Positions 11,517 to 45,886 of a stretch of DNA of 64,000 bases are shown here, piece after piece. Positions within the stretch are counted from its first letter, which is position 1. The number at the start of each line of letters is the position of its first letter. The stretch is from Pseudovibrio exalbescens. GTDB taxonomy: Bacteria > Pseudomonadota > Alphaproteobacteria > Rhizobiales > Stappiaceae. Under the pieces are notes generated by a model. That model was not told the DNA's origin, did no database searches, and was given only the letters and a program-made list of their open reading frames with translations. Both the position numbers and the translations under genes were made by a program. Where the stretch lies: assembly GCF_028737195.1 (NCBI RefSeq), contig NZ_JAQZAJ010000001.1, positions 248,001 to 312,000 of the forward strand, read 5' to 3'.

Positions 11517-11535
11517 GGACACTTGGATTTGGAGT
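11517..11535 (+). repeat. Transposase binding site L3
   Basis: GGACACTTGGATTTGGAGT, same orientation as L1 and L2, 31 bp after L2. It is identical to the reverse complement of R2 at 18 of 19 positions. Confidence 0.85.
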
Positions 11536-11585
11536 TCGAAGGTTGCTGTTGAGTGTCACGTTCGAGGCTTCGAAGGCCGTTCGAA
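11535..11585. repeat. Left TTCGAA cluster
   Basis: TTCGAA occurs at 11535, 11569 and 11580, with the variant TTCGAG at 11561. The last three sites start 8 and 11 bp apart. The cluster is 173-223 bp from the left prophage end and resembles clusters in the middle and at the right end. The binding protein is unknown. Confidence 0.6.
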
Positions 11586-11989
11586 ACCGCAGATTACCGC
11601 CATTTTTCCAAGTGTTCAAACCTTCTGCAGCTGCTCTCTCCAGCCCCGCAAACAATCAGAGAAGTCTAACATTTTGTTAGACTTCCATTAGCGGCAGAGT
11701 TCTGCCGTTTTTGAAGGATTTGGCTTTTGAGAAGATTAATCAAATTCTGAAGGATTTTGCCGAATTCACGGGTTTTGGTGCGCTGGCTCCCATTTTGCCT
11801 GGCTGGGGACGCTCTGGCTTCGAACGCTCTGTCAGAGGGCCTTCGAAAGACCTTCGAGAAACCTCAGGAACGCAGCCCAGATTATGCTTGAAACGGGTGT
11901 GCGGAAGGCTTTTGCAGCTTTTGGATGTGCGTAGTTGCTTGTTGCAAACCCTGACGGAAGATATGGGAACTTCGCCGTGAGGAGTAACC
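11586..11989. other. Non-coding stretch between left end and repressor
   Basis: About 400 bp without a supported gene. It holds a perfect 10-bp inverted repeat with a 5-nt loop (GAAGTCTAAC at 11661-11670 with GTTAGACTTC at 11676-11685), then a hairpin with a T run (CGGCAG at 11692-11697, CTGCCG at 11702-11707, TTTTT), which looks like a rightward terminator. A second pair of sites, TTCGAA at 11842 and TTCGAG at 11853, is 11 bp apart, with a single TTCGAA at 11819. In Mu the comparable region carries end-related control sites. Confidence 0.5.
11692..11712 (+). terminator. Rightward intrinsic terminator near left prophage end
   Basis: CGGCAG and CTGCCG form a 6-bp stem around AGTT and are followed by five T residues. 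It would stop transcription entering the prophage from the host side. Confidence 0.55.
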
Positions 11990-12520
11990 TCAAGCCTGGC
12001 GTTTGCTGGATGTGTCTTCAGCAGGTGCGGTGGTGAGTTGTTTCTTGAGGCGCTTGTGAAGCAGGCTCATGAGCGCTTGGCGCTCTTCGTCGTCTTGGGG
12101 ATCTTCCGCCATGGCAATGTATTCTTCGTATTTATCCATGGACAGGCGTGCCAGGTCGCGCTCTGTGATGCGGGCCCCCACTTCCTTATAGGTGCGGCCA
12201 ACGACCTCCAGCACGCGGGCAAAGAACTCTTTGTCCATACTGGTTGGCCGCGCTGTTTCTTGCTCATCCAGGCGCATGGGGCCTTCACCGAGAATAAGCC
12301 AGTTCAATGATAGGTCGTGTGCTTTGGCGATTGCTTTAAGAACGTCTGCATTCGGGAGGCTCTTTCCCGTTTCATAATCACGATATGTGTGGGGCGATAA
12401 CCCCAAACGCTTGCAATAGTCCACACGTTTTTCGTCGCCGCGTACGTCGATAAGCCTTTGACCTAATTGGGTTTTCGATTGTGCAATACGCGCCATAGAT
12501 AGATAAGCACAGAAATCCAT
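11990..12520 (-). CDS. Phage repressor, XRE-type helix-turn-helix
   Basis: Probable lysogeny repressor of the prophage. The 176-residue protein has an XRE/Cro-CI helix-turn-helix domain at about residues 17-75 (LGQRLIDVRGDEKRVDYCKR, then LGLSPHTYRDYETGKSLPN). An acidic C-terminal half without the S24 peptidase signature follows, so RecA-driven self-cleavage is not expected. It is transcribed leftward, divergent from the ner gene, at the position of the c repressor in Mu. The start is uncertain: ATG at 12520 lies inside an operator-like dyad, and an in-frame ATG at 12496 also exists. Neither has a strong ribosome site. Confidence 0.8.
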   Translation of the reverse strand: MDFCAYLSMARIAQSKTQLGQRLIDVRGDEKRVDYCKRLGLSPHTYRDYETGKSLPNADVLKAIAKAHDLSLNWLILGEGPMRLDEQETARPTSMDKEFFARVLEVVGRTYKEVGARITERDLARLSMDKYEEYIAMAEDPQDDEERQALMSLLHKRLKKQLTTAPAEDTSSKRQA

Positions 12521-12590
12521 CTTTTGCCGTTTACTTAAAGATGGAAATCTATCAATATCCTTTTGTATTTAAATAGAAGCAGTTGCTTCA
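12496..12590. promoter_or_regulatory. Early operator/promoter region with nested dyads
   Basis: Between repressor and ner there are three inverted repeats: CCATCTTT (12517-12524) with AAAGATGG (12537-12544); GATAGAT (12498-12504) with ATCTATC (12547-12553); and GAAGCA-GT-TGCTTC (12576-12589). They overlap the repressor start and precede ner, as expected for repressor and Ner binding sites controlling divergent promoters. The exact -35/-10 boxes cannot be fixed by eye. The region is about 1.15 kb from the left end, similar to the operator/enhancer of Mu. Confidence 0.6.
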
Positions 12591-12645
12591 AAAAAGACAA
12601 TCGCAAGGCTGCACCCTTTTGATTGTCGTTGATTTAGAGGCACTT

Positions 12646-12969
12646 ATGACGCACAAGCAAGACGACATGGACTCTGCGGAGATCCTGTTTCTCTTACGAA
12701 AGGCGGGACGGTCTTATCGCTATGTTGATGAGACCTATGGCCTTCCCAAGGGAACTGCCGTTAACACTGCACGCCAACCTCACCCCGGTGGTGAAAAGGC
12801 TTTGTCTGAAGTTCTCGGTCTTCCTCCTCAAAACATTTGGCCTAGCCGTTATGACGGTTCTACAGGTGAGCGGCTGAGCCCTCAACCCTTGGAGAACTAT
12901 CGCACACAGCCAATTCTCAGTCCACGTCCAAACGGCGGCTCTGAACTGACATGCGGGGTGGCGGCATGA
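12646..12969 (+). CDS. Ner-like early transcriptional regulator
   Basis: DNA-binding protein of the Ner/Nlp (SfsB) family, which in Mu lowers early and repressor transcription. The start chosen at 12646 gives 107 residues. The winged-helix region spans about residues 8-70 and has family-typical words: AEILFLLRKAGRSYRYVDE, YGLPKGTAVN, ALSEVLGLPPQNIWPSRY. A longer reading to 12583 exists but adds an unlike N-terminus over the dyad. The gene is first in the rightward early operon, and its stop overlaps the next start (ATGA). Confidence 0.83.
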   Translation: MTHKQDDMDSAEILFLLRKAGRSYRYVDETYGLPKGTAVNTARQPHPGGEKALSEVLGLPPQNIWPSRYDGSTGERLSPQPLENYRTQPILSPRPNGGSELTCGVAA

Positions 12970-13247
12970 TGACGATTGGCTTTGTCGTGCGCCAGTACAG
13001 CCTGGCCCCCGGCTTTGTGTATCTGGTTGATGCCCCGAGCCTGGGGCAGCCAGTCCAGATGCCGAAGACCAGCGCCAATGCTGGTGAGGCGAAAGTGTTT
13101 GAGCGCCGGGAAGCGGCCAGCTTCTGGGCAGAAGAACTGACCAAAGATCAACCCGCCTACGTGCCAGCCTGGCAAGTGAGCAAGGTGAGCATGCTGCCTG
13201 GTGCTGATGATCGGATGACGCTGCACGAAGCCCACGGGGGAGCTTAA
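12966..13247 (+). CDS. Early phage protein of unknown function
   Basis: A 93-residue soluble protein that I do not recognise. The start is taken at 12966, where ATGATG overlaps the ner stop codon and indicates coupled translation. The sequence has a beta-rich start (MTIGFVVRQYSLAPGFVYLVDAP) and ends GADDRMTLHEAHGGA. The last part is encoded by DNA nearly identical to a stretch inside the next gene (18 identical bases at 13208-13225 and 13446-13463), so the 3' end may have come from a local duplication. Confidence 0.55.
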   Translation: MMTIGFVVRQYSLAPGFVYLVDAPSLGQPVQMPKTSANAGEAKVFERREAASFWAEELTKDQPAYVPAWQVSKVSMLPGADDRMTLHEAHGGA

Positions 13248-13248
13248 T

Positions 13249-13560
13249 ATGAGTGACCTCACCATTACCATCATTGATGATGCACAGTCGCGAAAGCCGT
13301 CGTTGTTTCGGCAGTTCGCCGTGATTGCTTTCTTTGTCGCAATCCTCTTTGGGCCCGGATTACTGGCGAACAGCGCCGCCATGCAATGGGCGGGCTTCAT
13401 TGTGTGTCTGATTTTGGTTTCGGCAGCAATGAAAATAAGAGCCGGTGATCGGATGACGCTGCATGAGGCCCGCAGGAAACTGGAAGAGCTGGAAGCTAAG
13501 GGTAGAGCTGAAGCTGCTTTTAATCCCCCAAAGCCGACGCGACAGGAGGGAATGAGATGA
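13249..13560 (+). CDS. Small phage membrane protein
   Basis: A 103-residue protein with two hydrophobic segments at about residues 22-42 and 46-63 and a charged, probably helical tail (LHEARRKLEELEAKGRAEAAF). It directly follows the previous early gene, with GGGGGAGC as a ribosome site. The DRMTLHEA word is shared with the end of the upstream gene. Function is unknown. Small early membrane proteins in phages may alter the host envelope or exclude other phages, but nothing in the sequence shows this. Confidence 0.55.
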   Translation: MSDLTITIIDDAQSRKPSLFRQFAVIAFFVAILFGPGLLANSAAMQWAGFIVCLILVSAAMKIRAGDRMTLHEARRKLEELEAKGRAEAAFNPPKPTRQEGMR

Positions 13561-13569
13561 TCGTACTGT

Positions 13570-13866
13570 CTAAAGTTCGCCATCATCAGGGACTGGTTCA
13601 AGATCCTCAGGTCGCAACCGTAAAAAATCATGAACAGCAGACGGTCCAGCATCCAGACTTTGGAGGATGTTCTGGTAAGAGGAAAGAGTTTTTAAGGCTG
13701 TTTCGTGAGGCGGCTCGTTCAGAGCTGCAGATAAGTCTCGATGAAACTGTTTCATCGTCTCACACATATCGCTGATTTCGTTTGGCGTGATAACGCCTTT
13801 ATCGACAAGCGCATGTGTGAGCGCGAGCAAGGGCCAATAACTTGGGTCCTTTATAGAGATTTTCAT
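13570..13866 (-). CDS. Unknown 98-residue protein on the minus strand
   Basis: This gene runs against the early operon. The ATG at 13866 has an excellent ribosome site (AGGAGAACG, 5 bases away), which is why I prefer it to the plus-strand reading over the same bases. The protein is soluble and acidic (MKISIKDPSYWPLLALTHAL ... PEDLEPVPDDGEL), with no signal peptide or familiar motif. It is the second of two small leftward genes and could be an accessory ('moron') cargo gene expressed in the lysogen. I do not recognise the family. Confidence 0.55.
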   Translation of the reverse strand: MKISIKDPSYWPLLALTHALVDKGVITPNEISDMCETMKQFHRDLSAALNEPPHETALKTLSSYQNILQSLDAGPSAVHDFLRLRPEDLEPVPDDGEL

Positions 13867-13996
13867 TTCAACGTTCTCCTGTGACTCGTTTGGTTTGCAT
13901 CTTTGAGTTTAGGAGACTTCGGCTTCGCTGTCCTGCTTCCTCCCGTGTGGGGCAGCGGAGCCGTCAGATCACAGGAGCTTAAAGGCTTGCTATGTC
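13867..13996. other. Spacer with long hairpin between the two leftward genes
   Basis: GGCTTCGCTG (13929 on) and CAGCGGAGCC form a 10-bp stem with one mismatch around a loop of about 22 nt. In the leftward RNA the loop carries GGGAGGAAGC, which resembles a ribosome site. It may be a control element for the gene at 13570-13866. Confidence 0.35.
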
Positions 13997-14176
13997 CTAC
14001 GCTTTTCCAGTTCTGAAGGCTAACTGTTTGGCTGCTTCGGCATACATGCTTTTCATAAGCATGTCTGTTTCTTCTGCTGCAAGGTCTTCCAGCTTTGCCT
14101 TCACCTCTTCACGAGAAATCGATGGTTGTTCTTTGAACATCTCCAGAATGATGTCTCCAAATGCGAGATACCACAT
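13997..14176 (-). CDS. Unknown small protein on the minus strand
   Basis: A 59-residue helical, acidic protein (MWYLAFGDIILEMFKEQPSI ...). The start at 14176 is chosen because it has a near-perfect ribosome site, AAGGAGGTGAGACA, directly upstream. An in-frame ATG at 14242 with GGAG would give 81 residues, and the frame stays open to 14377. It is upstream of the other leftward small gene and may share its transcript. No known family is recognised; a role as accessory cargo or antitoxin-like partner cannot be judged. Confidence 0.5.
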   Translation of the reverse strand: MWYLAFGDIILEMFKEQPSISREEVKAKLEDLAAEETDMLMKSMYAEAAKQLAFRTGKA

Positions 14177-14368
14177 TGTCTCACCTCCTTTTGAACTAAC
14201 AGCGTTCATCCGTTCGCTGAGGCTAATCAGCTTGGATTTCATGAGATTTATCTCCGTGTGTTGTTGCCACATGGCGGTAAAGGTTGCGGCGCTGCCCATC
14301 AGCGTCGCAGCCACTCTACCAAAAGATTTTGCCTCCCAAAAAACAATCAGAAATTGATGTGATTTGAT

Positions 14369-15199
14369 ATGTCTCACTTGCCCTTGAAAGACATTGTTGT
14401 TCCTGAGCGTTTACGCCCGGTCCACGGGGACTGGATCGAGGTTCTTGCCGCCTCGATGGACGAGATCGGCCTTAAGGAGCCCATTGTGGTTCGTGAGGTC
14501 AAGCGAGGACGCAGCAAGCAGACAGAGCTTGTGGCGGGCGCACACCGCCTGGCGGCGGCCGAGCGGCTTGGCTGGGAAGAGATTTCGGTCAGCCTTGTGG
14601 AGGCCTCGGATCTTGAAGCCCGGTTGATTGAGATTGATGAGAACCTGATGCGGCGCGAGTTGTCGCCGCTTGATCGCGCCATCTTTTTGAATGAGCGCAA
14701 GAAGGTTCATGAGGAACTGTATCCGGACACCAAGCATGGTGGGGACGTCAAGAGCGCTGATTTCAAAGAGAAAAATCAAGTGGCCAACTTGGCCACTCGA
14801 TTTTCGAAGGCGGCGGCGGAGAAAACCGGGCTCTCGGAGCGCTCTATTCGCAGAGCTGTCGCAATCATCTCCAGGCTGTCGCCTGATGTGATTGATCTAG
14901 TGCGCCAGACCGGCCTTGCCGAAAGCGGGAAGGAACTTGAGGCGCTGGCCAAGAAGGAGCCTGCGGCGCAAAAAGCGGTGCTGCAAGCCATTGCTGATGG
15001 GCAGGCCAAGAAGGTTTCCGAGGCTGAGGTGCTGCTGTCCATGAAGCAGAGCGCTGCGCCGACAAGCGAGGATGAGAAGCACTATCGCGCCTTGCTGGCC
15101 AGTTGGAACCGGCTGGGGCGCAAGCCGCGCCGCCGTTTTCTGGAGGCGCTTGGGCTTGAGGCCTCTGAGGCTGTTCTTGATGCCAAGGTGAAGGACTAG
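14369..15199 (+). CDS. ParB/RepB/Spo0J-family partition-like protein
   Basis: The 276 residues begin with a ParB N-terminal (ParB/sulfiredoxin) domain at about residues 4-95: LKDIVVPERLRPVHGDWIEV, LKEPIVVRE, ELVAGAHRLAAAERLGW and IEIDENLMRRELSPLDRAIF. A helix-turn-helix with KTGLSERSIRRAV follows near residue 155. Such proteins bind centromere-like DNA in plasmids. In Mu-like phages of Alphaproteobacteria a ParB-like gene is often found before the transposase, with unknown role. No ParA partner is visible. It starts a rightward block after the two leftward genes and may have its own promoter. Confidence 0.8.
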   Translation: MSHLPLKDIVVPERLRPVHGDWIEVLAASMDEIGLKEPIVVREVKRGRSKQTELVAGAHRLAAAERLGWEEISVSLVEASDLEARLIEIDENLMRRELSPLDRAIFLNERKKVHEELYPDTKHGGDVKSADFKEKNQVANLATRFSKAAAEKTGLSERSIRRAVAIISRLSPDVIDLVRQTGLAESGKELEALAKKEPAAQKAVLQAIADGQAKKVSEAEVLLSMKQSAAPTSEDEKHYRALLASWNRLGRKPRRRFLEALGLEASEAVLDAKVKD

Positions 15200-15203
15200 T
15201 GCC

Positions 15204-15710
15204 ATGGCCCGCTCAAGATCCAGATCAAGACGGCCTGCGGATGAGCGCCAATTTGAAATGTTTGGCGGGGATGGCCAGCCCGTGCAGCAGCTCTTTCCGG
15301 TGCGCACGCCCAAGGCTGACATTGAGTGCATGGACTTTTCTTCCAGGCTGAAGCGGGACATGAGCCTTGCCTTGAAGGAGTGCAGCAAGAGCCGTGAGGA
15401 AGTGGCGGCGCGGATGAGTGCCATTCTGGGCTTGCCCAAGTTCTCCAAGGCGATGCTGGACAAGTACACCTCTGAGAGTTCGGAGGCGCACCAGATCAGC
15501 CTGCTGCGGTTCAAGGCATTTGTGAAGGCGACGGGGTGCAACTGGCTGTGGCAGCGGGTGGTTGAGGATGATGGCCTGACCCTTATGGAGGGGGAAGAGG
15601 CGCGGCTTGCCCAGATTGGGGTGCTTGAACAGCAGATCCGGGAGAGCCAGCAGCTTTTGAAGGATTTGAAGAATGACCCGGTGGACCTGCGCAGAAGGCG
15701 GAGACGGTGA
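15204..15710 (+). CDS. Phage early protein of unknown function, upstream of transposase
   Basis: A 168-residue basic-ended protein (MARSRSRSRR ... RRRRRR). The centre resembles proteins found directly before transposase A in transposable phages (MSLALKECSKSREEVAARMS, FSKAMLDKYTSESSEAHQISLLRFKAFVKATG) and looks like a compact helical, helix-turn-helix-like domain. A C-terminal coiled coil follows (ARLAQIGVLEQQIRESQQLL). The arginine-rich tails suggest nucleic-acid binding. It overlaps the transposase start by 4 bp. Function unknown. Confidence 0.7.
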   Translation: MARSRSRSRRPADERQFEMFGGDGQPVQQLFPVRTPKADIECMDFSSRLKRDMSLALKECSKSREEVAARMSAILGLPKFSKAMLDKYTSESSEAHQISLLRFKAFVKATGCNWLWQRVVEDDGLTLMEGEEARLAQIGVLEQQIRESQQLLKDLKNDPVDLRRRRRR

Positions 15711-17650
15711 TGCTGAAAGAATGGTTTGATGTCTCTGAGATGATCGGTGTCCGTGTTTCAGGGTGGCCTGAGACTGAAATGGGAATGAGCCGTTTGATTG
15801 AACGCGAAGGCTGGCGGAACCATGGTGACCGTTGCCGGGAACGTGAGGGCCAGGGTGGTGGCTATGAGTACCATGTGAGCCTGTTGCCTGCGTGCGTGCA
15901 GGCCAAGCTTCTGGCGCAGGCCGGTACGATCAAGATCAAGGAAAAGGGCGCGGCAACCAGCGAGGCATGGGCCAACTATGAGCGCCTTTCTGCCAAGAAG
16001 AAGCAGGAGGCCAAGGACCGGTTGAGCGTGGTTGCTCGCATAGACACCATGTATCGGGGCGGCATGAACAAGACGCACGCGGTGGCGTTCGTGTCCCAGG
16101 AGACGGGCATCAGCTCTTCCACCTTGTGGAACTGGGAGAAGCTGACGCATGGCTATGCCAGGGAAGACTGGTTGGCTGTGCTTGCGCCCAAGCACCCTGG
16201 CAGGACTGTGACGGCGGACTGTCATCCTGCGGCCTATGAGATGCTGAAGGCGGATTATCTTCGCCCTGAGAAGCCGGGGTTTGCGGCGTGCTACCGGCGC
16301 ATGAGTGAAGCGGCTGTTGAGCATGGCTGGGCTCCTATCCCCAGTGCGAAGACCTTGAAGCGACGCATTGAGCGGGAAGTGCCTGCGGGGGCGATTGTGC
16401 TTTCGCGGGAAGGTAAGGACGCGGCAAAGCAGCTTTATCCGGCGCAAACCCGTGATCGGTCTGTGTTCCATGCCATGGAGGCGGTGAACGCGGATGGACA
16501 CAAGTTCGATGTGTTTGTTCGCTTTGAGGATGGCAGCATTGGCCGCCCTTTGATGCTGGCCCTGCAGGATCTTTATTCGGGCAAGATGCTCTCTCACCGC
16601 ATCCAGAAGTCGGAAAACAAGGACGCGGTGCGCCTTGCGATTGGGGACATGGTGGAGAGCTTTGGCATCCCCGATACGATCTATCTGGACAATGGTCGCG
16701 GCTTTGCCTCCAAGTGGATTACTGGCCGGATGAAGAACCGTTTCCGGTTCAAGGTGAAGGATGAAGACCCGGCGGGCATTTTGACCACTCTTGGTGTGAC
16801 AGTGCACTGGACCACGCCGTATTCAGGCCAATCCAAGCCGATTGAACGGGCGTTCCGTGATCTGTGTGAGGAGATTGCCAAACACCCGAAATGCGCCGGG
16901 GCCTATACGGGTAACAACCCGATGGCGAAGCCTGAGAACTATGGCTCGAAGGCCATTCCCATTGCTGAGTTCGAGCAGCATGTTGCTGAACAGATTGTGC
17001 GCCATAACACCCGTGAGGGGCGTCGTGCGGCCGTGTGTGCGGGGCGCTCGTTCGAGCAGGCCTTCCGGCAGTCTCTGGAAGACCCATCGACAATCATTCG
17101 AACGGCTTCTGAAGCGCAGCGCCGGTTGTGGTTGATGGCGGCTGAGGGTGTGAAATCCCGCAGGCCTTCTGGTGAAATCCACCTCAATGGCAACCGTTAT
17201 TGGGCTCCTGTGATGGTTGAGCATGCGGGGTCAAAGATGATCGTGCGCTTTGACCCTGACAACTTGCATGACGGGATCTTCGTTTATCGGCTGGATGGGT
17301 CGTTTGTGTGCGCGGCTGAGTGCATTGAAGCGGTTGGCTTTAACGACACCAATGCGGCGCGTGAGCATGCCCGCAAGCGCCGTGCGTACCTTAAAGCGCT
17401 GCGTGAAGCTGAGAGCATTGAGAAGAGCCTCGACATTCAGGAGGTGGCGGATCTCCTGCCCAAGATTGAGATGGAAAGTGAAGCCTTGCCTGAACAGCGG
17501 GTTGTTCGTCTGGCTGTTGGGCAGGATCGCCCGGTGCCTGATGGTCCTGCGTGGAATGATGAGGCTTCGGATAGTTTTGGCCGTGCTGTGGCGGCCATGA
17601 GTAACGCTAGTAACCGCGTTGTGCCCTTCCAGAGCGGGGCAGATAGCTGA
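15707..17650 (+). CDS. Transposase A (MuA family DDE integrase)
   Basis: Catalyses strand transfer of the phage ends into target DNA, for both integration and replicative transposition. The 647 residues match MuA (663) in length and order. An N-terminal winged-helix DNA-binding domain comes first, then end-binding helices, then the catalytic core with the triad Asp263 (VNADGHKF), Asp328 (IYLDNGRG) and Glu380 (SKPIERAF). These lie close to Asp269, Asp336 and Glu392 of MuA. The segments NRFRFKVKDEDPAGI and KHPKCAGAYTGNNPMAKPEN are diagnostic. A C-terminal domain probably contacts the ATPase MuB. The binding sites are the L1-L3 and R1-R2 repeats. Confidence 0.96.
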   Translation: MMLKEWFDVSEMIGVRVSGWPETEMGMSRLIEREGWRNHGDRCREREGQGGGYEYHVSLLPACVQAKLLAQAGTIKIKEKGAATSEAWANYERLSAKKKQEAKDRLSVVARIDTMYRGGMNKTHAVAFVSQETGISSSTLWNWEKLTHGYAREDWLAVLAPKHPGRTVTADCHPAAYEMLKADYLRPEKPGFAACYRRMSEAAVEHGWAPIPSAKTLKRRIEREVPAGAIVLSREGKDAAKQLYPAQTRDRSVFHAMEAVNADGHKFDVFVRFEDGSIGRPLMLALQDLYSGKMLSHRIQKSENKDAVRLAIGDMVESFGIPDTIYLDNGRGFASKWITGRMKNRFRFKVKDEDPAGILTTLGVTVHWTTPYSGQSKPIERAFRDLCEEIAKHPKCAGAYTGNNPMAKPENYGSKAIPIAEFEQHVAEQIVRHNTREGRRAAVCAGRSFEQAFRQSLEDPSTIIRTASEAQRRLWLMAAEGVKSRRPSGEIHLNGNRYWAPVMVEHAGSKMIVRFDPDNLHDGIFVYRLDGSFVCAAECIEAVGFNDTNAAREHARKRRAYLKALREAESIEKSLDIQEVADLLPKIEMESEALPEQRVVRLAVGQDRPVPDGPAWNDEASDSFGRAVAAMSNASNRVVPFQSGADS

Positions 17651-17718
17651 GGAGATGCCTTGCACGCATCCCCCCAACAACAGTGTCCTAAACGGACCAC
17701 AAGCAAGTGGAATAGAAC

Positions 17719-18717
17719 ATGTCTGATCGAATTAAACAAGCCTGGGATTTGGTTGAGCCGGTAGCCGAGATACCGGAAAAGCAGAAGTGGGCGTGGCTGG
17801 ATGCCCGGACTGCTGCGAAGAAGTATGCGGAAAACAAGGGGTTTTCAAAGGCAGCCTTTGCCCGGGAGGTGGGTATTCCTGCTGCGACGTTTTCGGAGTG
17901 GTGGTCTGGCAAGTATCGTGGTGACTACGGCAAGACCACAGAGGCTGTCAGTCAGTTTGTCGAGAACCAGCGTGCATTTGAACAAACGGAAATGCGCATT
18001 CCTGACGATCTCGATTACGTTGAGACGCCGACTTCTCAGAAGGTAATGAGCGCGCTTCAGTTTGCCCAGGCGATGCCTGAGATGGTCGTGATTGTGCTGG
18101 GCGCTGGGATGGGTAAATCCATCACGGTGCGCAAGTACCAGGAGAACCATTCGCACACGTATCTTGCAACGATGCGGCCAACAACGGCAACGCCGGGAAC
18201 CATGCTCAATGAGATCGGCTTGAGCATGGGGATTTTTGAGCGCAGCGTTTCCTTGCGAGAGCGCGCCATTGGAGAGCGGGTTCAACGCAATGGGCGAAAG
18301 CCGCTGCTGATTATTGATGAGGCGCAGAACCTTAATGACAACGCGGTCAATCAGTTGCGCCACTTCCTTGACATTTACCAGTGCGGCATTGCGCTGATCG
18401 GCAATGAAGAGCTCTACACTCGTTTTGGTGGGACCAAGCCCAAGGCAGCTTATGCGCAGATCAATCGGCGGATCGGCATGCGGGTGCGTCAGATGCGGCC
18501 GAGCAAAAAGGATATCGACGTGATTGTCGATGCATGGGGCATTGAAGACGAGGATGCTTGCAAGATGCTGCGTCTGATCGGAAGCAAGCCTGGAGCTCTT
18601 TCTCAGATTTCGAAGACCGTTCGGCTGGCTCACATGCTGGCCATGGGAAGCGGCGGGCTTGTCAACGCAGAACTGATCCGGGCGGCCTGGTCGAACCGTG
18701 GGGGGGAAGAGCTATGA
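17719..18717 (+). CDS. Transposition target-selection ATPase (MuB family)
   Basis: AAA+ ATPase that coats target DNA, activates transposase A and gives target immunity. The 332 residues start with a helix-turn-helix region (about 25-60, GFSKAAFAREVGIPAATFSE) as in MuB. Then come a P-loop GAGMGKS at 128-134, Walker B LLIIDEAQN with Asp200 and Glu201, and a C-terminal helical domain. It lies 68 bp after the transposase, as in Mu. Its stop overlaps the next start (ATGA). Confidence 0.93.
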   Translation: MSDRIKQAWDLVEPVAEIPEKQKWAWLDARTAAKKYAENKGFSKAAFAREVGIPAATFSEWWSGKYRGDYGKTTEAVSQFVENQRAFEQTEMRIPDDLDYVETPTSQKVMSALQFAQAMPEMVVIVLGAGMGKSITVRKYQENHSHTYLATMRPTTATPGTMLNEIGLSMGIFERSVSLRERAIGERVQRNGRKPLLIIDEAQNLNDNAVNQLRHFLDIYQCGIALIGNEELYTRFGGTKPKAAYAQINRRIGMRVRQMRPSKKDIDVIVDAWGIEDEDACKMLRLIGSKPGALSQISKTVRLAHMLAMGSGGLVNAELIRAAWSNRGGEEL

Positions 18718-18962
18718 ACGTTGCATTGAACAGGCAGCTCAGAGCGCTTGAAGTTTGGTTTCGTGAGTACACCAAACATGGTGAGCCGTTTTCGCAGGAA
18801 AGCGCAGATGCGTTCTTGAGCGCTCTTGGGCACGCCATTGACCTGGCTAATGCGCAGGTGCCCAGGCTCAATGAAGACCACCTCAAATCACCGGCAGTGG
18901 TGTTGTTTCCCGTTGTGGCGCGACCTCATCCCCAGTCCATTCAACCCGACCTTACAGCCTAA
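18714..18962 (+). CDS. Small early phage protein, unknown
   Basis: An 82-residue soluble protein, starting at ATG 18714 within the stop of the B gene. An N-terminal helical half (MNVALNRQLRALEVWFREYT) is followed by a proline-rich tail. No family is recognised. Its position in the B-to-GemA block, where Mu carries semi-essential early genes, suggests an accessory role in replication or host takeover. Confidence 0.55.
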   Translation: MNVALNRQLRALEVWFREYTKHGEPFSQESADAFLSALGHAIDLANAQVPRLNEDHLKSPAVVLFPVVARPHPQSIQPDLTA

Positions 18963-18980
18963 AGCGACAGGACTTTCCCA

Positions 18981-19601: not shown

Positions 19602-19613
19602 AGAGGTCTTGAG

Positions 19614-21784: not shown

Positions 21785-21814
21785 AGCCGGTAACAACTGT
21801 TACCGGCTCTTTTT
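21783..21814 (+). terminator. Strong hairpin at the end of the early block
   Basis: A perfect 12-bp stem (AGAGCCGGTAAC, loop AACT, GTTACCGGCTCT) is followed by TTTT and overlaps the Mor stop codon. A nearly identical hairpin occurs at 29624-29652. Either both are terminators or the GGTAAC/GTTACC dyad is also an activator site. Confidence 0.8.
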
Positions 21815-38281: not shown

Positions 38282-38289
38282 GGCGAATT

Positions 38290-38970: not shown

Positions 38971-39013
38971 AAATGCCCCAGAGAACTGCTTCTTCCCAAC
39001 CTGAGAGGACATC

Positions 39014-40231
39014 ATGACAACTAACTATCATCACGGGGTTCGCGCCTTCGACAAGACAACGGCTGTTCCTGTCATCAGGGTTGGCGAGTCCGGGGAAATT
39101 GGCATTATCGGAACGGCGCCAGAGGCGGATAATGATAAATGGCCGCTCAACGTTCCCGTCGCGATTGTTGGTGACATAACGAAAGCGGAGAGCTTGGGCG
39201 GTGCGGGCACTTTGCCGATTGCGCTTAAGACAATCTGGAAACAGTACAGTCAGACATCCGGCAAAATCGTGGTGGTGCGTGTTGAGGAGATTGCCGATCC
39301 CGATCAGCAAAAAAGCGCAGTGATCGGTGATGTGACCCAGAAAACTGGCGTCCATGCATTCCGGTCCGCCAACACGTTGGTCGGCATTGAGCCTGATCTC
39401 TTGATTGCTCCAGGGTTTGCAAATGCGACTGCTGACGGGGTTGCCAATGCGGTGGTCAATGAACTGGTGAGCGTTGCAAATCGGCTGCGTTCATTCGTCT
39501 TCTTTGACGGACCGAATACCTCCGCTGCGGATGCTGTTCTCGCACGTGAGAACTATGGCTCGGATCGTGCCATGATGGTTGATAACTACATTTCCGAGTG
39601 GGATACCGCATCCGATGGAGAAGTGCAGCTTCCCGGATCAATTCTAGCTGCAGCCATGCAGTCGAAGATGGATCTGGAACGCGGTTTCTGGTGGCCTGCC
39701 TCTAACAAGCCAGCGCTTGTTAACGGGACAGCTCGTGTCGTGGACTTCCGCTCCAATGACAGTGGATGTGAAGCCAACTTCCTCAACTCACATGACATCA
39801 CAACGATCATTCGGGACGATGGCTTCCGGCTGTGGGGTACCCACACGCTTGATAGCGAAAAGCTTCTTGGCGGTACCATTGTTGGTCGCCGGGTAGCCGA
39901 CAAGACTTATGATGCTCTGGAACGTGGTCTGATGGCTTACATCGATGTGCCGACCAGCATTCAGGCGCTCAAGGATATCGCGGCGACCGCTGAAGAGTTC
40001 TTGAGATCCATGGTGCGTCAAGGTGCCTTGATCAGTTTTCAGTTCGAGCTTCCGCTGGAACTGAACTCCGCACGGCAAATGGCTGACGGGAAACTGGTGT
40101 ATCGCCTCAAGTTTGTGGAAGCGGCCTCCATCCGGGAAATCCAGCTTTGGGGCTATCGCACGCCCGATCTTTACGAAGAGTTTCTTACCCGCGCTGCTGC
40201 TGTAAGCAGCTCTTCAGCGGTCGCGGCCTAA
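39014..40231 (+). CDS. Contractile tail sheath protein (P2 gpFI-like)
   Basis: 405 residues. The segments YHHGVRAFDKTTAVPVIRVG, VVRVEEIADPDQQ, PDLLIAPGFAN and FFDGPNTSAADAVLARENYG belong to the P2 FI sheath family. The C-terminal domain contains WPASNKPALVNGTARVVDFR and IDVPTSIQALKDIA. This protein makes the phage a myovirus with a contractile tail. GAGAGGAC precedes the ATG. Confidence 0.93.
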   Translation: MTTNYHHGVRAFDKTTAVPVIRVGESGEIGIIGTAPEADNDKWPLNVPVAIVGDITKAESLGGAGTLPIALKTIWKQYSQTSGKIVVVRVEEIADPDQQKSAVIGDVTQKTGVHAFRSANTLVGIEPDLLIAPGFANATADGVANAVVNELVSVANRLRSFVFFDGPNTSAADAVLARENYGSDRAMMVDNYISEWDTASDGEVQLPGSILAAAMQSKMDLERGFWWPASNKPALVNGTARVVDFRSNDSGCEANFLNSHDITTIIRDDGFRLWGTHTLDSEKLLGGTIVGRRVADKTYDALERGLMAYIDVPTSIQALKDIAATAEEFLRSMVRQGALISFQFELPLELNSARQMADGKLVYRLKFVEAASIREIQLWGYRTPDLYEEFLTRAAAVSSSSAVAA

Positions 40232-40247
40232 CTGGGAGGGAAAAAAC

Positions 40248-40760
40248 ATGGAACAGGGACACAAGCTTGATGGCTTCACACTTTGGATGGGACCGGATGA
40301 CTATGGCGGGATTGTCACAGGCATCACACGCCCGGAAGTCTCACGCAACATTCAGGAACGCAAGGCGGGAGGGAGACGGTTCCCAATCGGTACGGCCCAT
40401 GGCTACGAAACCCTGAAGATGACAATCAAAACCAAGGGTCTGTCCATGAAGATGTTCCGGGCGTTGTTGCCCGGAACCATAGATGGGGTGAAACTTTTCG
40501 TTCGAGGCCATTTTGATGACGAGCTTGGCGGGACGCTTACTTCGGTTGAAGAGGTCGTTGGTCGTGTCAAATCTCCAAAAGTCATCGACGAAATGAAACA
40601 GGACGATGACGTGGAAGGCGAAATCGAGATCTGGCCCGTCTATTACAAATGGGAGATTGGCGGGAAAAAAGAGCTGGAGATCGATGTCCTGAACGACATC
40701 ATCTATCCCGATGAAATCGATGGCTCTGAAGCGCGCCGCACCTCCCTAGGCCGCACGTAG
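40248..40760 (+). CDS. Major tail tube protein (P2 gpFII-like)
   Basis: 170 residues, building the inner tube of the contractile tail. HKLDGFTLWMGPDDYGGIVT, RRFPIGTAHGYETLKMTIKT and DDDVEGEIEIWPVYYKWEIG are typical of gpFII. It starts 16 bp after the sheath gene, with GGGAGGG as ribosome site. A GC-rich hairpin follows, as after other abundant structural genes. Confidence 0.92.
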   Translation: MEQGHKLDGFTLWMGPDDYGGIVTGITRPEVSRNIQERKAGGRRFPIGTAHGYETLKMTIKTKGLSMKMFRALLPGTIDGVKLFVRGHFDDELGGTLTSVEEVVGRVKSPKVIDEMKQDDDVEGEIEIWPVYYKWEIGGKKELEIDVLNDIIYPDEIDGSEARRTSLGRT

Positions 40761-40778
40761 ACTGCCCTCTTTTTGACC

Positions 40779-40795
40779 GGCGGCCGTGGGCCGCC
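40779..40795 (+). other. Hairpin after the tail tube gene
   Basis: GGCGGCC and GGCCGCC form a 7-bp GC stem with a GTG loop, followed by CGTCGCTCCTTTC. It is comparable to the hairpins after the capsid genes and may stabilise or partly end the tube mRNA. Confidence 0.5.
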
Positions 40796-40835
40796 CGTCG
40801 CTCCTTTCTATCTCCTAAACTGAAAGAGTTTGAAC

Positions 40836-41183
40836 ATGACAAAGCAAGTTGTGACGCTGGCCAGCCCAATCACAATCAACGGCAACAAGGTGAGCGAAAT
40901 CACATTGGTGCGCGAACCGGTGGGCCGTGAACTTGGTAACTTCACGCCATTTGACGTGGCCGAAGGCAACATTAAAGCCCTTGCATACGTGCTGCCCAAG
41001 ATCTGTTCTCCGCACCTGCCCAGTTCGGTGATCAAGGATATGGCAACCGGAAACATCATGGCACTGACAGCGGGCTTCAACCGTTTTTTCGATGGACTGG
41101 AACCGGATGGACTGGTGAAGACGGTGGAGACGACATCGGACAAGACGACGAACTCTCCCGACCAGAGCGGCCAGAAAGCCTAG
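40836..41183 (+). CDS. Tail assembly chaperone E (P2 gpE-like), unshifted product
   Basis: 115 residues (MTKQVVTLASPITINGNKVS ...). Position between the tube and tape-measure genes, and the core TLVREPVGRELGNFTPFDVA, mark it as the tail assembly chaperone that coats the tape-measure protein. The start is ATG 40836. A slippery heptamer at 41084-41090 would send some ribosomes into the -1 frame to make a longer E+E' form. Confidence 0.85.
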   Translation: MTKQVVTLASPITINGNKVSEITLVREPVGRELGNFTPFDVAEGNIKALAYVLPKICSPHLPSSVIKDMATGNIMALTAGFNRFFDGLEPDGLVKTVETTSDKTTNSPDQSGQKA

Positions 41184-41332
41184 ACCAGATTTTCTATGAG
41201 ATCACAGCCGCCTTTCAGTGGGGGCTGCGAGATCTGGAAGATTTGTATTGGGCTGACCTATACAGGCACTGGATCAATGCCCGCGAGATTTTGAAAGAGC
41301 GAAAGGCGGCCATGGATGAGCAACAATCTTAA
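40836..41332 (+). CDS. Frameshifted tail chaperone E+E' (-1 shift at 41084-41090)
   Basis: The heptamer T-TTT-TTC lies at codons 83-85 of E. A -1 slip there enters a frame open to TAA 41330-41332 and gives a 165-residue fusion whose second part contains LDQIFYEITAAFQWGLRDLE and LYWADLYRHWINAREILKER. The E' frame has no start codon of its own of useful size, as in P2 E/E'. P2 products are 91 and 142 residues, so the proportions agree. The fusion overlaps the tape-measure start by 17 bp. Confidence 0.8.
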
Positions 41333-44237
41333 AGCCCAGATGACCATGACCTTGCGCGATAAGTTTTCGCGCAATGGTCGCCGCCTTCGCGACCAAATGA
41401 GAGGCATGCGAAAAGATAGTCGCGATTTGGGACAAGGCTTTAAAAGCGCAGCTCGTGAGGCTGCGGACATGGCTCGCAAGGACGTGCAGGCTGCGCGCTC
41501 AAAGCAGGAGCTCATCGAAAAATTCAAGAAAGGCCGAAATGCGGTCAAGCAATCCCGGCTTGAGTACGTATCTGCCAAGGCAAAGTTGCAGGCTTTCAGC
41601 AACGAACTCAAGGCTTCTGAGAAGCCTTCGAAGAAGCTTCAAACTGCTTTCAAAAAGGCGAAGTCTGATACAGAACGCCTTGGGAAAGCTTTCAAACAAA
41701 CTACACGAACAGCCCAGAGGAATAAGCAGGCGCTAGAGGCGGCTGGTATTAAGGCTAACCGGTTGTCCATGGAAGAGAAGAAGCTGGTAACAACGGTTGA
41801 CCGCGCAACAAAAGAACTGGATGAACAAACAAGAGCGCTTCGAAGACAGCAAGTCGAGTACCAGCGTTTGGAACGCCGAAAGCAAGCAATCCTCAGGTTG
41901 ACTAACCGGGAGCGCCAGCGCCGGGACAGCCGCCTGATGCACGGCGCTGCAGTGGGGGCGGCCGGTGTCGGGGCTATGTTAGCGGGCAGACAAGTAGTTC
42001 GGCCCGTTGCGGGTTCCGTCATGCAGTTTGCCTCGTTTGAAGAGCAGATGGACGCGGTGGCCGCTGTGGCGCGGGTTCGCAAAGGGAGTAATGATTACCG
42101 CAGCTTGAATGAGCTGGCTCGGGAGTTGGGTGCTACAACCAGTTACAGTGCTTTGGAAGCCGGGCAAGGTATGGGCTTTCTTGCCATGGCTGGTATGGAT
42201 GTCAATGCAATCAAAACGTCGATGTCTGATGTACTTGACCTGGCAAAGGCCACCAAGACCGACCTCGCTGGCACGGCAGATATCAGCTCCAATATCCTTT
42301 CTGGTTTTGGCCTGGAGCCGGAACAGATGACCCGCGTGGCTGATGTGCTGACAGCTACAACCACACGAGCAAACGTGGATTTGGTCATGCTTGGGGAAAG
42401 CATGAAGTATGCTGCGCCTGTCGCCAAACAGTTGGGTGTGTCTTTGGAAGAAACAGCTGCCATGGCTGGCTTGCTGGGGAACGTTGGTATTCAGGGCTCA
42501 ATGGCTGGTACGTCGCTGCGTACCATTTACACCCGGTTGGCAGTACCCAATAAGCGGGCGGCAGATGCTCTGCGCACTCTGAAGGTTGAAACAAAAGATG
42601 CAGCGGGCAACCTGCGATCGGTACCTGATGTTCTTCTGGAAATTGCACGGGCAACTGAGCACATGGGCTCAGGACAAAGGGCAGAGATCTTCAAGAGTAT
42701 TGCTGGAGCTGAGGCCGGATCGGCTTTTGCGGCTTTATTGGACAATAAGGGATACGCAGTTTTTGAAACGCTGTTGTCTGATCTTGAAAACGTGAATGGC
42801 GAAGCCAAGCGCGTTGCGACACAGATGGGCGACAACCTGATGGGTGACTGGCGTGGTTTCATGTCTTCTGTTTCAGAACTCGCTCTCATATTCGGCGGCT
42901 CTCTCAGCCCGTCAATAAGAGAAGCCGTTCAATCCATGACTGCATTCACCAGGTCCGTTGGGGTATGGCTTAAAGATCACCCTAATGTGACCAAGGCCAT
43001 TGGCTTTACCATTGCGGCGTTGGCAGGATTGCTGATCGTTGGCGGAGGCCTACTGACCTTTATGGGCTCAGCGATGGCTCTGAGCGCCGGTCTTCGCTTT
43101 GGCTTGTTCATGATGGGAATGCGTGCCAGAACCAGTGCGCGGGGGATTGGACTGATGTCCCGTGCTTTGCGTCTGGTCAATCCAATCCGTTGGGCGCTGT
43201 TAATCCCCAAACTGAGCTGGAAACTGTTCGTTCCCGCTTTGAGATGGCTTTCCTTCGTGCCCAAAATTGGGTGGCAGAGCCTGGTTACAGGCTTCCGATG
43301 GCTGTCGTTCGTTCCCAAACTGTCCTGGCGGTTATTGATCCCTGCGTTGCGATGGGGCTCTCGCCTCATCCCAGGTATTGGATGGGCCGTTCTGGCAGGA
43401 GAATTGGCGTGGCATCTTCTCATAAAACCATTGGGGTGGGACAAGTATCTGCCCAGCATTGACTGGCAGCAGATTGTTGGCGCTGTGTCATGGGAAGGCT
43501 GGATCCCGCGCATCGACTGGAAGAAGGTTATTGGATCAATCTCTTGGCCGTCAGAACTGACATCCTTTGACTGGAGAAAGTTCATTTCTGAAGTCGATTG
43601 GAAGAACCTTGTGCTTCTTAGTGTGCCGGGCACAATCAACTCGGTCATCGAAGCCTTTACCGGGATCAACCTGTTTGAGGCAGGTGTGAACGCCATCAAG
43701 TCACTTTGGAACGGCATGAAGTCCATGGTTGGTCAAATGGCGGCTGATATCAAGGCGCGGATGGTAGGAATGCTGCCGGACTGGGCAACCAAATACCTTG
43801 GAATTGGTAGCGCTTCCGATGGCGCTGAAGGAAAGCTACAAGCTAGAGCGACGGGTGGCTCATATCGGTCCGGGCCTCTTCTGGTCGGAGAGCAAGGCCC
43901 AGAGCTGCGCTATGCAACTCAGGGCGGATATATCGCCCACAATGACAATTTGAAGCGCATGGTGCGGATGTCTGATCGTATTCGCCGAGCGGCTCGAATT
44001 GGAATGGTTGCCGGTGCGATGGCCGCGCCAGTTTCAGCAGTTGCTGCAGCACCTATTCTTCCCACTATGCCAGCTCAAACCGCTCCTGCTGCAACTGCCG
44101 GGCCGAAGTTTGAGATCTCAATTCAGATTGGCGATATCACGGCTACGGATGCGAACATTGGTAATGTTGTCGAAGAGGCGGTTGCAAACGCTCTGGAACG
44201 CGCCATGGCTGACGCGCAGAGGCGTTTGTCTGATTGA
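41316..44237 (+). CDS. Tail tape-measure protein
   Basis: 973 residues, setting tail length. An N-terminal coiled coil (about 25-205) is followed by the conserved tape-measure domain from about 240 (FEEQMDAVAAVARV, LARELGATTSYSALEAGQGM, GNVGIQGSMAGTSLRTIYTR). Membrane-like helices lie near 560-610, and a Trp-rich repeat region at 622-765 has 17 Trp in about 140 residues. The C-terminus has GPLLVGEQGPELRYA. It follows the E/E' chaperone, its usual partner. The repeat region may reflect recent tail-length change. Confidence 0.93.
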   Translation: MSNNLKAQMTMTLRDKFSRNGRRLRDQMRGMRKDSRDLGQGFKSAAREAADMARKDVQAARSKQELIEKFKKGRNAVKQSRLEYVSAKAKLQAFSNELKASEKPSKKLQTAFKKAKSDTERLGKAFKQTTRTAQRNKQALEAAGIKANRLSMEEKKLVTTVDRATKELDEQTRALRRQQVEYQRLERRKQAILRLTNRERQRRDSRLMHGAAVGAAGVGAMLAGRQVVRPVAGSVMQFASFEEQMDAVAAVARVRKGSNDYRSLNELARELGATTSYSALEAGQGMGFLAMAGMDVNAIKTSMSDVLDLAKATKTDLAGTADISSNILSGFGLEPEQMTRVADVLTATTTRANVDLVMLGESMKYAAPVAKQLGVSLEETAAMAGLLGNVGIQGSMAGTSLRTIYTRLAVPNKRAADALRTLKVETKDAAGNLRSVPDVLLEIARATEHMGSGQRAEIFKSIAGAEAGSAFAALLDNKGYAVFETLLSDLENVNGEAKRVATQMGDNLMGDWRGFMSSVSELALIFGGSLSPSIREAVQSMTAFTRSVGVWLKDHPNVTKAIGFTIAALAGLLIVGGGLLTFMGSAMALSAGLRFGLFMMGMRARTSARGIGLMSRALRLVNPIRWALLIPKLSWKLFVPALRWLSFVPKIGWQSLVTGFRWLSFVPKLSWRLLIPALRWGSRLIPGIGWAVLAGELAWHLLIKPLGWDKYLPSIDWQQIVGAVSWEGWIPRIDWKKVIGSISWPSELTSFDWRKFISEVDWKNLVLLSVPGTINSVIEAFTGINLFEAGVNAIKSLWNGMKSMVGQMAADIKARMVGMLPDWATKYLGIGSASDGAEGKLQARATGGSYRSGPLLVGEQGPELRYATQGGYIAHNDNLKRMVRMSDRIRRAARIGMVAGAMAAPVSAVAAAPILPTMPAQTAPAATAGPKFEISIQIGDITATDANIGNVVEEAVANALERAMADAQRRLSD

Positions 44238-44248
44238 GGAGAACCATC

Positions 44249-44659
44249 ATGTCCAGACCCCTGGCTGCTTTGGGGAGGTTTATATTCTCACCTGATGCTG
44301 GATCTTTTGAGGAGCTGGAACGGCGCTGGAAGTTCATCTGGGCAAAGCCAGATCCGATTGGCGGTGCTCCCAGAAAGCAATGGACTGGCCCGGGTGATCA
44401 AACATTGATGATCAAGGGCGGGATTTGGCCGGAGATCCAACCTGCGGGCGCGTGGAAGCTGGAAGCCATTGCTGCCCGTGCTGGCACGGGTCAGCCGGTT
44501 AGTCTCACTTTAGGTTCTGGCCGCGTTCTGGGGCGCTGGTGTGTGGAAGAGATCTCAAAGAAAGAAACTGAGTTTGTCCGGCCTGGACCCGGAACGGTAA
44601 TGGAGTTTTCCATCCAACTCAGCCGGTATACTGGAGGAAGTTCACTATGGCCGTTCTAA
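44249..44659 (+). CDS. Tail protein U (P2 gpU-like)
   Basis: 136 residues from ATG 44249 (GAGGAGAA upstream). LGRFIFSPDAGSFEELERRW, RPQWTGPGD-like RKQWTGPGDQTLMIKGGIWP and LGSGRVLGRWCVEEIS are hallmarks of P2 U proteins, which cap the tail end. It overlaps gene X by 13 bp. Confidence 0.87.
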   Translation: MSRPLAALGRFIFSPDAGSFEELERRWKFIWAKPDPIGGAPRKQWTGPGDQTLMIKGGIWPEIQPAGAWKLEAIAARAGTGQPVSLTLGSGRVLGRWCVEEISKKETEFVRPGPGTVMEFSIQLSRYTGGSSLWPF

Positions 44660-44883
44660 AACGTGCTCAGAAGGGTGATACCGTTGAACTGATGATCATG
44701 AAGCACTATGGCCGCCAGAGCGATGAACTGCTGCGTTTGGTGATGACACATGAGCGCAACAAGCACCTTTGCGCCCCCGATGCGCCCTTCGTTCTGGACA
44801 GTTCAGTTCTGGTGTACTTCCCAGATGCACCAAATCAGGAAGCGCCTCGTTTTGTTACCCCTGCCATCAGTCTTTGGAGCTGA
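44647..44883 (+). CDS. Tail protein X (P2 gpX-like, LysM-type)
   Basis: 78 residues of the gpX family. AQKGDTVELMIMKHYGRQSD is a LysM-like start, then VLVYFPDAPNQ near the end. Such proteins are baseplate hub components between U and D in P2. It overlaps U and ends 1 bp before D. Confidence 0.85.
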   Translation: MAVLKRAQKGDTVELMIMKHYGRQSDELLRLVMTHERNKHLCAPDAPFVLDSSVLVYFPDAPNQEAPRFVTPAISLWS

Positions 44884-44884
44884 T

Positions 44885-45886
44885 ATGAATCTGTTTGTTT
44901 CTATTAACGGTATCGATGTTTCCGGTTTTGTTATTGGTCAGCTCTTGGGAAATGAATCAAACTCTAATCTGATCGATATCAGCGTGACAGATGAAGCTGG
45001 CAGCAAGTCCGACAAGGTTGAACTGACATTGGTGCGTGATGGAAATATTCCACCACCACCAAAAGGAGCCGAGATCCTCGTAATGCTTCCCAATGCTCAG
45101 GGCATGCTGATGCCAGTCGGGACGTTCTATTCCGACGCTCCAACGACGAGGGGAAACAAAAAGGACGGCCACCAGATGCGGATTAGTGGAACGTCCGCCA
45201 ATATGGGTGGTTCTTTAAAGGAGAAGAGAACCCAAAGCTACAGCAACACAACTGTCAAAAAGGTAGTCGAGATCATTGCGGGCCGTCATTCTCTGGAACC
45301 GGTAGTAGGCGATAGCCTTGCCTCAATCGCGGTCCTACACAAGGATCAGACGAATGTGAGTGATATGCACTTCCTTACCGAGTGGGCAAAGGATCTGGGA
45401 GCCATATTCAAACCAACTCAAAGGAAGCTGCTTTTTGTTGAAAAGGGAACCACCAAATCAGCAACCGGAATTCCGCTTCCGGCTGTGATGCCACTAGCAA
45501 CTCAGATAATTGACTATGAATGGGAAGGGAGCCAACGTGATGAGTACAAGATGATTAAGGCTGCCTATCACGATCAGGACGGGGCAACTCGCTTGTATGA
45601 GGTGGCTGGAGAGGGAGAGCCTTCCTACACTCTATCCAAGAGCTATCCTGGAAAGGACGAAGCCAAAAGAGCTGCAGACGCCGCATTGAAAGAAGGCGTG
45701 GCTGGTGCCGAGAAGGCGAAGATCACGATTATAGGGGACGCCAGTGCCCTGGCTGAAGGCGCAATTACCCTGCCGCCACTCCAACCTGAGTTGGCTGGTT
45801 CGTGGAGCATTCGAAAGGTGGTTCACAATGTTCGAAAGGCTGTCGGATACACTTCGAAGCTGGATCTGGAAAGGGTGCGAAGCTAG
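44885..45886 (+). CDS. Late gene D tail protein (P2 gpD-like)
   Basis: 333 residues from ATG 44885, the baseplate hub protein related to T4 gp27 and type VI VgrG. LFVSINGIDVSGFVIGQLLG, SKSDKVELTLVRDG and SDMHFLTEWAKDLGAIFKPT are family features. It is the last gene of the prophage. Its 3' end contains three TTCGAA sites 21-22 bp apart that may also serve as DNA signals. Confidence 0.9.
   Translation: MNLFVSINGIDVSGFVIGQLLGNESNSNLIDISVTDEAGSKSDKVELTLVRDGNIPPPPKGAEILVMLPNAQGMLMPVGTFYSDAPTTRGNKKDGHQMRISGTSANMGGSLKEKRTQSYSNTTVKKVVEIIAGRHSLEPVVGDSLASIAVLHKDQTNVSDMHFLTEWAKDLGAIFKPTQRKLLFVEKGTTKSATGIPLPAVMPLATQIIDYEWEGSQRDEYKMIKAAYHDQDGATRLYEVAGEGEPSYTLSKSYPGKDEAKRAADAALKEGVAGAEKAKITIIGDASALAEGAITLPPLQPELAGSWSIRKVVHNVRKAVGYTSKLDLERVRS
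45810..45858. repeat. Right TTCGAA cluster
   Basis: TTCGAA at 45810, 45831 and 45853, spaced 21 and 22 bp (two helical turns), inside the end of gene D. It is 164-212 bp from the right prophage end, mirroring the left cluster at 173-223 bp. Confidence 0.6.

Follow-up and report, generated by a model that had tools for sequence, protein, structure and literature searches.

The prophage of phage Mu is described as a looped domain that needs the strong gyrase site (SGS), the left (L) end, MuB and host nucleoid proteins, and neither MuA nor the right (R) end (PMC3820752). Gyrase cleavage in Mu is reported at a single strong site (PMC10052514), and the first 40 nucleotides (nt) of the right arm of the SGS are essential and contain phased bending signals (PMC6463007). 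The meeting of Mu ends that are 37 kb apart, and the requirement of the domain for the L end but not for MuA, still call for an explanation. Our subject is a Mu-like prophage of 34.7 kb (11362..46022, forward strand) of Pseudovibrio exalbescens, which lies in a 64,000-nt stretch of contig NZ_JAQZAJ010000001.1 (positions 248,001 to 312,000; hereafter the window, with positions counted from its first letter) and carries phased arrays of the word TTCGAA near its left end, in its middle and near its right end. These three-place arrays are real and are conserved in Pseudovibrio prophages, and their places recur wholly or partly in distant Mu-like phages and in Mu itself.

Direct listing of sites recovered all three TTCGAA clusters that the original prediction, made from the sequence of the window, had placed in this prophage. 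The first left array (11535..11585) is composed of TTCGAA at 11535, TTCGAG at 11561 and TTCGAA at 11569 and 11580. It begins immediately after a third transposase-site-like repeat (GGACACTTGGATTTGGAG; 11517..11534, forward strand, read from the sequence), which the first TTCGAA directly abuts, and its helical pair lies 207/218 bp from the terminus. A second left pair at 11842/11853 was confirmed as well, and a third site, at 11819, had been missed; together they make up the second left array (11819..11858; TTCGAA at 11819 and 11842, TTCGAG at 11853). The central array (29522..29558) is at 52% of the prophage length and consists of TTCGAG at 29522, TTCGAC at 29532 and TTCGAA at 29542 and 29553, spaced 10/10/11 bp; it sits between the gpF-like (28149-29333) and protease I-like (29653-30696) genes, which is the place of the SGS in Mu. 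The right array (45810..45858) has TTCGAA at 45810, 45831 and 45853, spaced 21/22 bp, and lies within the 3' end (the last codons) of a tail-protein gene. The left sites start 173-218 bp from the left terminus and the right sites 169-212 bp from the right end. The near mirror image that had been claimed for the two ends thus holds for Pseudovibrio, whereas the right arrays of the Devosia and Pannonibacter prophages described below lie ~65-120 bp from the end and none was seen in Mu.

The TTCGAA count alone is raised and not extreme, with 18 in the prophage against a mean of 10.2 (standard deviation 2.9, maximum 19) in 300 dinucleotide shuffles; the host DNA of the window has 6 in 29.3 kb. It is the clustering that is extreme. 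Five clusters of at least three near-sites (gaps up to 24) were found in the prophage and none in the host flanks, and any such cluster appeared in 14/300 shuffles, in agreement with the predicted contrast to shuffled and host DNA. A motif-blind scan was also run for hexamers with pairs spaced 10-12, 20-23 or 31-33 bp; it covered the initial 800 bp, the central gap and the final 400 bp. TTCGAA was the sole hexamer paired helically in all three places, both in this prophage and in those of two other Pseudovibrio genomes, G025 and G023, that is, in 3/3 complete Pseudovibrio prophages examined. Among the controls, any three-place hexamer was seen in 6, 7 and 6 of 3000 random window triplets and in 0/60 shuffles each. 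The blind scan, the random triplets, the shuffles and the clustering rule out a chance origin of the arrays. Pure AT/GC periodicity does not set the central array apart, its value being reached by 6% of the windows taken along the prophage; that of the Mu SGS is reached by 0.6% of Mu windows. The exact central pattern had one match, the window itself, in 397 genomes drawn from the order (a draw that excluded G025 and G023) and one in viral contigs, and blastn of the central gap against phages matched nothing.

The closest relatives of the prophage are other Pseudovibrio prophages. As had been expected of related prophages, G025 and G023 retain every array: left, second left, centre and right. 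The left pair is found 218/229 bp from the terminus in both, and the second left array 490/501/513 bp from it in G025 and 489/500/511 bp in G023. The central arrays have the same 10/10/11 spacing, with sites and spacers identical save for one spacer base in G025, where the array is at 54% of the length. The right array has four sites in G025 and five in G023, mostly 21-23 bp apart, the right termini of both being placed 3 bp short in our distance table. Over the three prophages, identical columns made up 29/35, 30/30 and 28/30 of the site columns against 221/508, 174/276 and 219/344 of the other columns, a test that is biased by picking the columns for presence in two rows. A fairer control is given by the hexamers common to two prophages: the third keeps 8/11 of the TTCGAA hexamers and 157/470 of the other shared hexamers (p 0.01). 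The remaining prophage cluster in the window (34536-34574), the fifth, is formed by the imperfect near-sites CTCGAA/GTCGAA/TTCGAC, 22 and 11 bp apart, and has no counterpart among the near-site clusters listed for G025 or G023. The muA gene of G023 contains a near-site cluster. A further Pseudovibrio prophage (G022, L028) is a decayed remnant that kept the left pair and lost the repressor region, and its similarity to the prophage of the window is lost within the central gap, short of the array.

In some distant Mu-like prophages the same places are occupied by a changed word. Pannonibacter p1 (L055) has TTCAAA 208/219 bp from the left terminus, in a stretch that can be aligned with the window by eye (TTCAAACAGTGTTCAAAACCGCAGA in L055 and TTCGAAGGCCGTTCGAAACCGCAGA in the window). 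Its centre, at 48% of the length, reads TTTAAA/CCCAAG/TTCAAA/TTCAAA at the same offsets 0/10/20/31 as in the window, and at its right TTCAAA (119 bp from the end) and TTTAAA (97 bp) are spaced 22 bp. In the blind scan TTCAAA was the sole hexamer helically paired in two places of this prophage, left and centre. In Devosia L123 the strict pairs are TTTAAA-11-TTCAAA at the left and TTTAAA-23-TTTAAA at the right (numbers between words are spacings in bp), and looser TTTAAA/TTCAAA rows are visible by eye at left, centre and right, the centre by eye only. Oricola shows TTCAAA-11-TTCGAA at both left (L065) and centre (L155); the coordinates of the two are compatible with one prophage. The second prophage of R. 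paknamense has TTCAAA pairs spaced 11 bp at the centre and 12 bp at the left, and Rhizobium chutanense has TTCGAA-11-CTCGAA ~60-70 bp from the right end. Measured on the sequences, the left rows of these distant relatives lie ~175-230 bp from the terminus.

The Asticcacaulis prophage (L114) uses yet another word. It contains 42 CTTAAG-like sites in 53.9 kb. With the left end set at L114:1645, only four helical chains of this word occur in that stretch, at distances of 218 bp and of 19.7, 28.9 and 41.3 kb from this end. The idea that the first CTTAAG match arose by chance was dropped once the left row and further rows of that word appeared. The middle array is within a stretch matching the portal protein and not in the gap before gene I. 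The right terminus of the prophage was not found, so the row at 41.3 kb is no more than a possible right array. Right termini were also not found for Shinella SUS2 and an Agrobacterium prophage, in which the stretches examined held no chain of three.

Mu itself has elements in two of the three places. At its left, TTCAAA is found at nt 205/216 (204/215 bp from the terminus), and D108 keeps this pair although the spacer bases differ. In the right arm of the SGS, TTTAAA at 17894, TTTAAA at 17915 and TTTAAC at 17927 have offsets 0/21/33, right of the gyrase cut site that the Mu record gives at 17879-17880; a late promoter is annotated in the same gap. The 36.7 kb of Mu contain 61 TTYRAA words (Y, pyrimidine; R, purine) and five helical pairs of them, two of which are the left pair at 205/216 and the SGS pair at 17894/17915. 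The statement in the original prediction that Mu has no such system therefore needs to be revised for the left end and the SGS right arm, which match in place and roughly in spacing; a right array was not seen.

The central array and the Mu SGS thus share the gap before gene I, a position near the middle (49% of the length in Mu) and phased words, right of the annotated cut in Mu. They differ in that the window has four sites at 0/10/20/31 and Mu words at 0/21/33, and in that gyrase cleavage is known in Mu, while the likeness here is one of sequence. Moreover, the central word recurs here at both ends, for which no such description in Mu was met in the parts of the literature available. The left end resembles Mu attL (L1-L3) in having L1- and L3-like repeats and, 204-218 bp inside the terminus, two phased palindromes, TTCAAA in Mu and TTCGAA here. 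The passages covered mention no function for Mu nt 205-221. They also do not describe a three-place pattern; the original Mu SGS papers lie outside this coverage, so that a description there is possible.

To see how general the arrangement is, we turned to an even set of the best 80 of 120 MuA loci, mostly alphaproteobacterial. Left ends could be placed by a helically spaced CGGGA cluster at 23/80 loci, in most cases with TGT and a transposase-site-like repeat next to it. Downstream of this cluster, 5/23 left ends had strict TTYRAA pairs spaced 10-12 bp, against 13/8000 random windows. With the looser word YTYRAR, chains of at least two at 10-12 bp were found at 10/23 left ends against 95/8526 background windows, and chains of at least three at 4/23 against 9/8526. 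Spacings of 4-6, 7-9, 13-15 and 16-18 bp gave no YTYRAR chain of three at the 23 left ends. Without the three prophages that had prompted the idea (L049, L055, L056), the chains of at least two and at least three persisted in 7/20 and 3/20. In the gaps before gene I, a chain of at least two was present in 11/27 against 66/1620 gene-side windows; this centre set is 27/30 of the loci L134-L163, several of them from one genome, after removal of L136 and L157, whose frame holds a stop, and of L163, which is another piece of the L143 place. Many other left ends show a looser row by eye and were left out of the counts. From lineage to lineage, a change of the left word tends to go with a change of the centre word: 12/5040 permutations were as good as the observed pairing (seven lineages, arrays partly picked by eye). 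This co-change and the recurrence at three places fit sites for one factor acting on the ends and the centre.

The original prediction had suggested sites for a protein that brings the ends together through the centre; recurrence and co-change favour this, and the role itself we infer from sequence. With moderate confidence, we regard the arrays as a conserved component, acting in cis, of the system by which Mu-like phages pair their ends, be it in the prophage domain or in transpososome assembly. Each array is a row of short YTYRAR palindromes, one per one or two helical turns, so that all face one side of the DNA. Within one phage a single factor would recognize almost identical words at the left, in the middle and in any right array, and the word differs between phage lineages. 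The central array, at the place of the SGS right arm, is probably the wrapping arm of such a site. An SGS-like centre would place the prophage midpoint at the apex of a supercoiled loop, and the end arrays, which lie directly inward of the transposase sites, may mark or hold the base of the loop so that the ends meet. The need of the Mu domain for the L end and not for MuA would be expected if the L end holds a site read by a factor other than MuA. More tentatively, and rather as a possibility than as an expectation, Mu-like phages might carry a lineage-specific three-point address code, in which one dedicated DNA-binding factor recognizes a phased palindrome at the left, the middle and several right ends and folds the prophage into a transposition-ready loop; the SGS and nt 205-221 of Mu would then be its reduced form.

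Several observations weigh against the end-pairing role. Mu showed no array at its right end and has different words at the left (TTCAAA) and the centre (TTTAAA), and the blind scan of Mu and D3112 found no hexamer in two or more places. The same scan found none in two places in ThpS-P1 and Aussie and gave one unconvincing hexamer each in RcapMu and RR1-B, and Pannonibacter p1 had no hexamer paired at left, centre and right alike; RhkS-P1 had no two-place hexamer either, a void test because its record starts away from the terminus. The strict chain is absent from 13/23 left ends and 16/27 centres. The attL deletion of PMC3820752 may or may not cover nt 205-221. Finally, the single strong gyrase site described for Mu makes gyrase no self-evident candidate for reading the end arrays.

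A dedicated protein may not be needed if the words serve as anisotropic bending signals, with TT-YR-AA phased as it is in nucleosome DNA, and are wrapped by gyrase at the centre and by gyrase, HU or IHF at the ends. This explanation, which we regard as somewhat unlikely, gains from the bending signals of the SGS right arm cited above and from the mixing of TTCAAA and TTTAAA in Mu and of words in Pannonibacter and Devosia. However, the words of the Pseudovibrio arrays are TTCGAA or one base off and never TTTAAA or TTCAAA, which should also bend; the AT/GC periodicity of the central array is, as noted, unexceptional; and the spacing at the right end is two turns. All these phages could share gyrase or a host nucleoid protein as reader, which fits the centre and fits less well the strict single Pseudovibrio word. 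The phage ParB-like CTPase, the first candidate of the original prediction, could instead bind TTCGAA as a parS-like site and bridge the three places. The prophage does encode a ParB-family protein, a gene of this family is a near-constant neighbour upstream of muA (74/80 loci; two of the six loci without a ParB hit hold <1.7 kb upstream of muA), and the protein gives profile matches to Noc, Spo0J and KorB chains, with a predicted helical region after its N-terminal domain. The TTCGAA sites are palindromes, as are the sites of the ParB/parS, Noc and KorB CTPase systems; they differ from these in being short hexamers phased by one or two turns. Rows also occur where no ParB is detectable, in Devosia L123 and in Mu, whose record annotates none and for which the available part of PMC5488378 reports none. 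The sites are thus not confined to phages with ParB, which rules the protein out as a generally required reader and leaves it as an unlikely one. TTCGAA rows are mostly missing from prophages whose ParB is 35-43% identical, the exceptions being L030 and L038.

The N-terminal domain of MuA, which binds the enhancer in Mu, might read the arrays as a split transpositional enhancer. The domain (PF02316) is present, the left array abuts the third transposase-site-like repeat, and a reviewed model has MuA bridging the L end, the enhancer (E) and the R end (PMC3562280), so that in both cases several places would act jointly in end pairing; MuA itself is found in all 80 loci by selection. The Mu enhancer, however, lies right of the repressor gene and before the early genes (PMC5977238), and the TTCGAA arrays lie elsewhere, with no TTCGAN in 12520-13992. 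Together with the independence of the Mu domain from MuA, this makes such a reading quite improbable. The same empty stretch, beyond the start of the repressor gene, makes repressor operators unlikely, and with them the repressor as a reader, another candidate of the original prediction. An equally doubtful reader is the small protein encoded at 15204..15710 (phrog_2345). Proteins of this type are encoded in 38/80 loci, including Devosia L123 with its rows and no ParB hit, and the predicted fold is helical, has a long helix at the C-terminus and matches XRE-type chains weakly. Against it, the protein was not seen in the Mu annotation, and a structure search gave no significant match (best E 0.28). 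Least probable of all is transcriptional control, by a late activator at a promoter before gene I and by other regulators at the ends. A candidate sigma70-like promoter (TTGACC-17-TAAGAC; 29566..29594, forward strand), recognized by eye directly right of the central array, is kept in G025 and G023, and the Mu record marks its late promoter in the same gap. No promoter was recognized at the end arrays (by eye, with no systematic scan), though, the right array is within coding sequence, and the Asticcacaulis middle array is within the portal match. Promoter control fits the centre at most.

If the arrays do belong to end pairing, a motif that marks the left end and the centre from Mu to alphaproteobacterial phages, and several right ends, gives a precise target of ~30 bp, nt 193-221 of Mu. 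It would also provide a sequence rule for candidate strong gyrase sites, and matching changes of the word to changes of proteins would be a route to the binding factor.

The prophage has the features of a Mu-like transposable phage: MuA, MuB, GemA and Mu-type head gene families, with transposase-site-like repeats at both ends. Its termini (11362 and 46022) were placed through comparison with G025 and G023 and not through a target duplication; the left end reads TGTAGGGAGACACTTG and the right end GTGTCCCGCTTCA, with a CGCTTCA ending that is also found at the end of the Mu record. The repeats, read from the sequence, comprise L1 (GACACTTGAACTTGGAG; 11370..11386, forward strand) and the adjacent, inverted R2 and R1 (45976..46015, reverse strand). 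A CI-like repressor gene (11990..12520, reverse strand) was assigned by a family match (HTH_3). On the forward strand follow the ParB-like gene (14369..15199; PF02195, phrog_3264), the gene of the small helical protein and candidate DNA binder, the MuA-like transposase (15707..17650; PF02914, PF09039, PF02316) and the MuB-like ATPase (17719..18717; PF09077). The model of the ParB-like protein has a mean pLDDT (predicted local distance difference test) of 86.1, and the helical part after its N-terminal domain resembles the ParB helix-turn-helix. For the small protein the mean pLDDT is 85.9; its structure search had no match at E 0.001 or better, and among the XRE-type matches chain 3f6w had a probability of 0.99 and an E of 0.32.

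Some minor observations concern similar words elsewhere. By eye, several relatives have a TTTGATCCTGA-like sequence right after the central array, at 29559-29575 in the window. Within the tail-tip gene, at 41627-41654, words of the types TTCGAA, TTCAAA and TTTCAA are 11 bp apart, and the matching gene of G025 has a TTCGAA pair 11 bp apart. Near-site clusters of three are found in L030 (10741-10777) and L038 (11356-11380, spacing 11/13), a TTCGAA pair 11 bp apart in L169 (13615), and further 11-bp rows of the TTCAAA/TTTGAA type, away from located ends, in the Rhizobium prophages L164, L165 and L185. Near the right end, ThpS-P1 has a TTCAAC row and Aussie, by eye, a TTCGAA-11-TTTAAA pair, and neither has a three-place word. 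D3112 has a different central palindrome pair and unconvincing ends: the central gaps of Ab30 (L172) and D3112 (L174) hold two palindromes of the GGCACA[AT]TGTGCC type, spaced ~25 bp, which coincide with or adjoin the 37-bp insertion-free segment reported for Ab30 (PMC5977238). At the left end of the window's prophage, CGGGA words at 10-12 bp repeat after L1 (11387-11450), a layout of L1 repeat and CGGGA words shared by the 23 related left ends; this stretch has the highest AT/GC helical periodicity of the prophage, and the cluster is a good marker of the left terminus.

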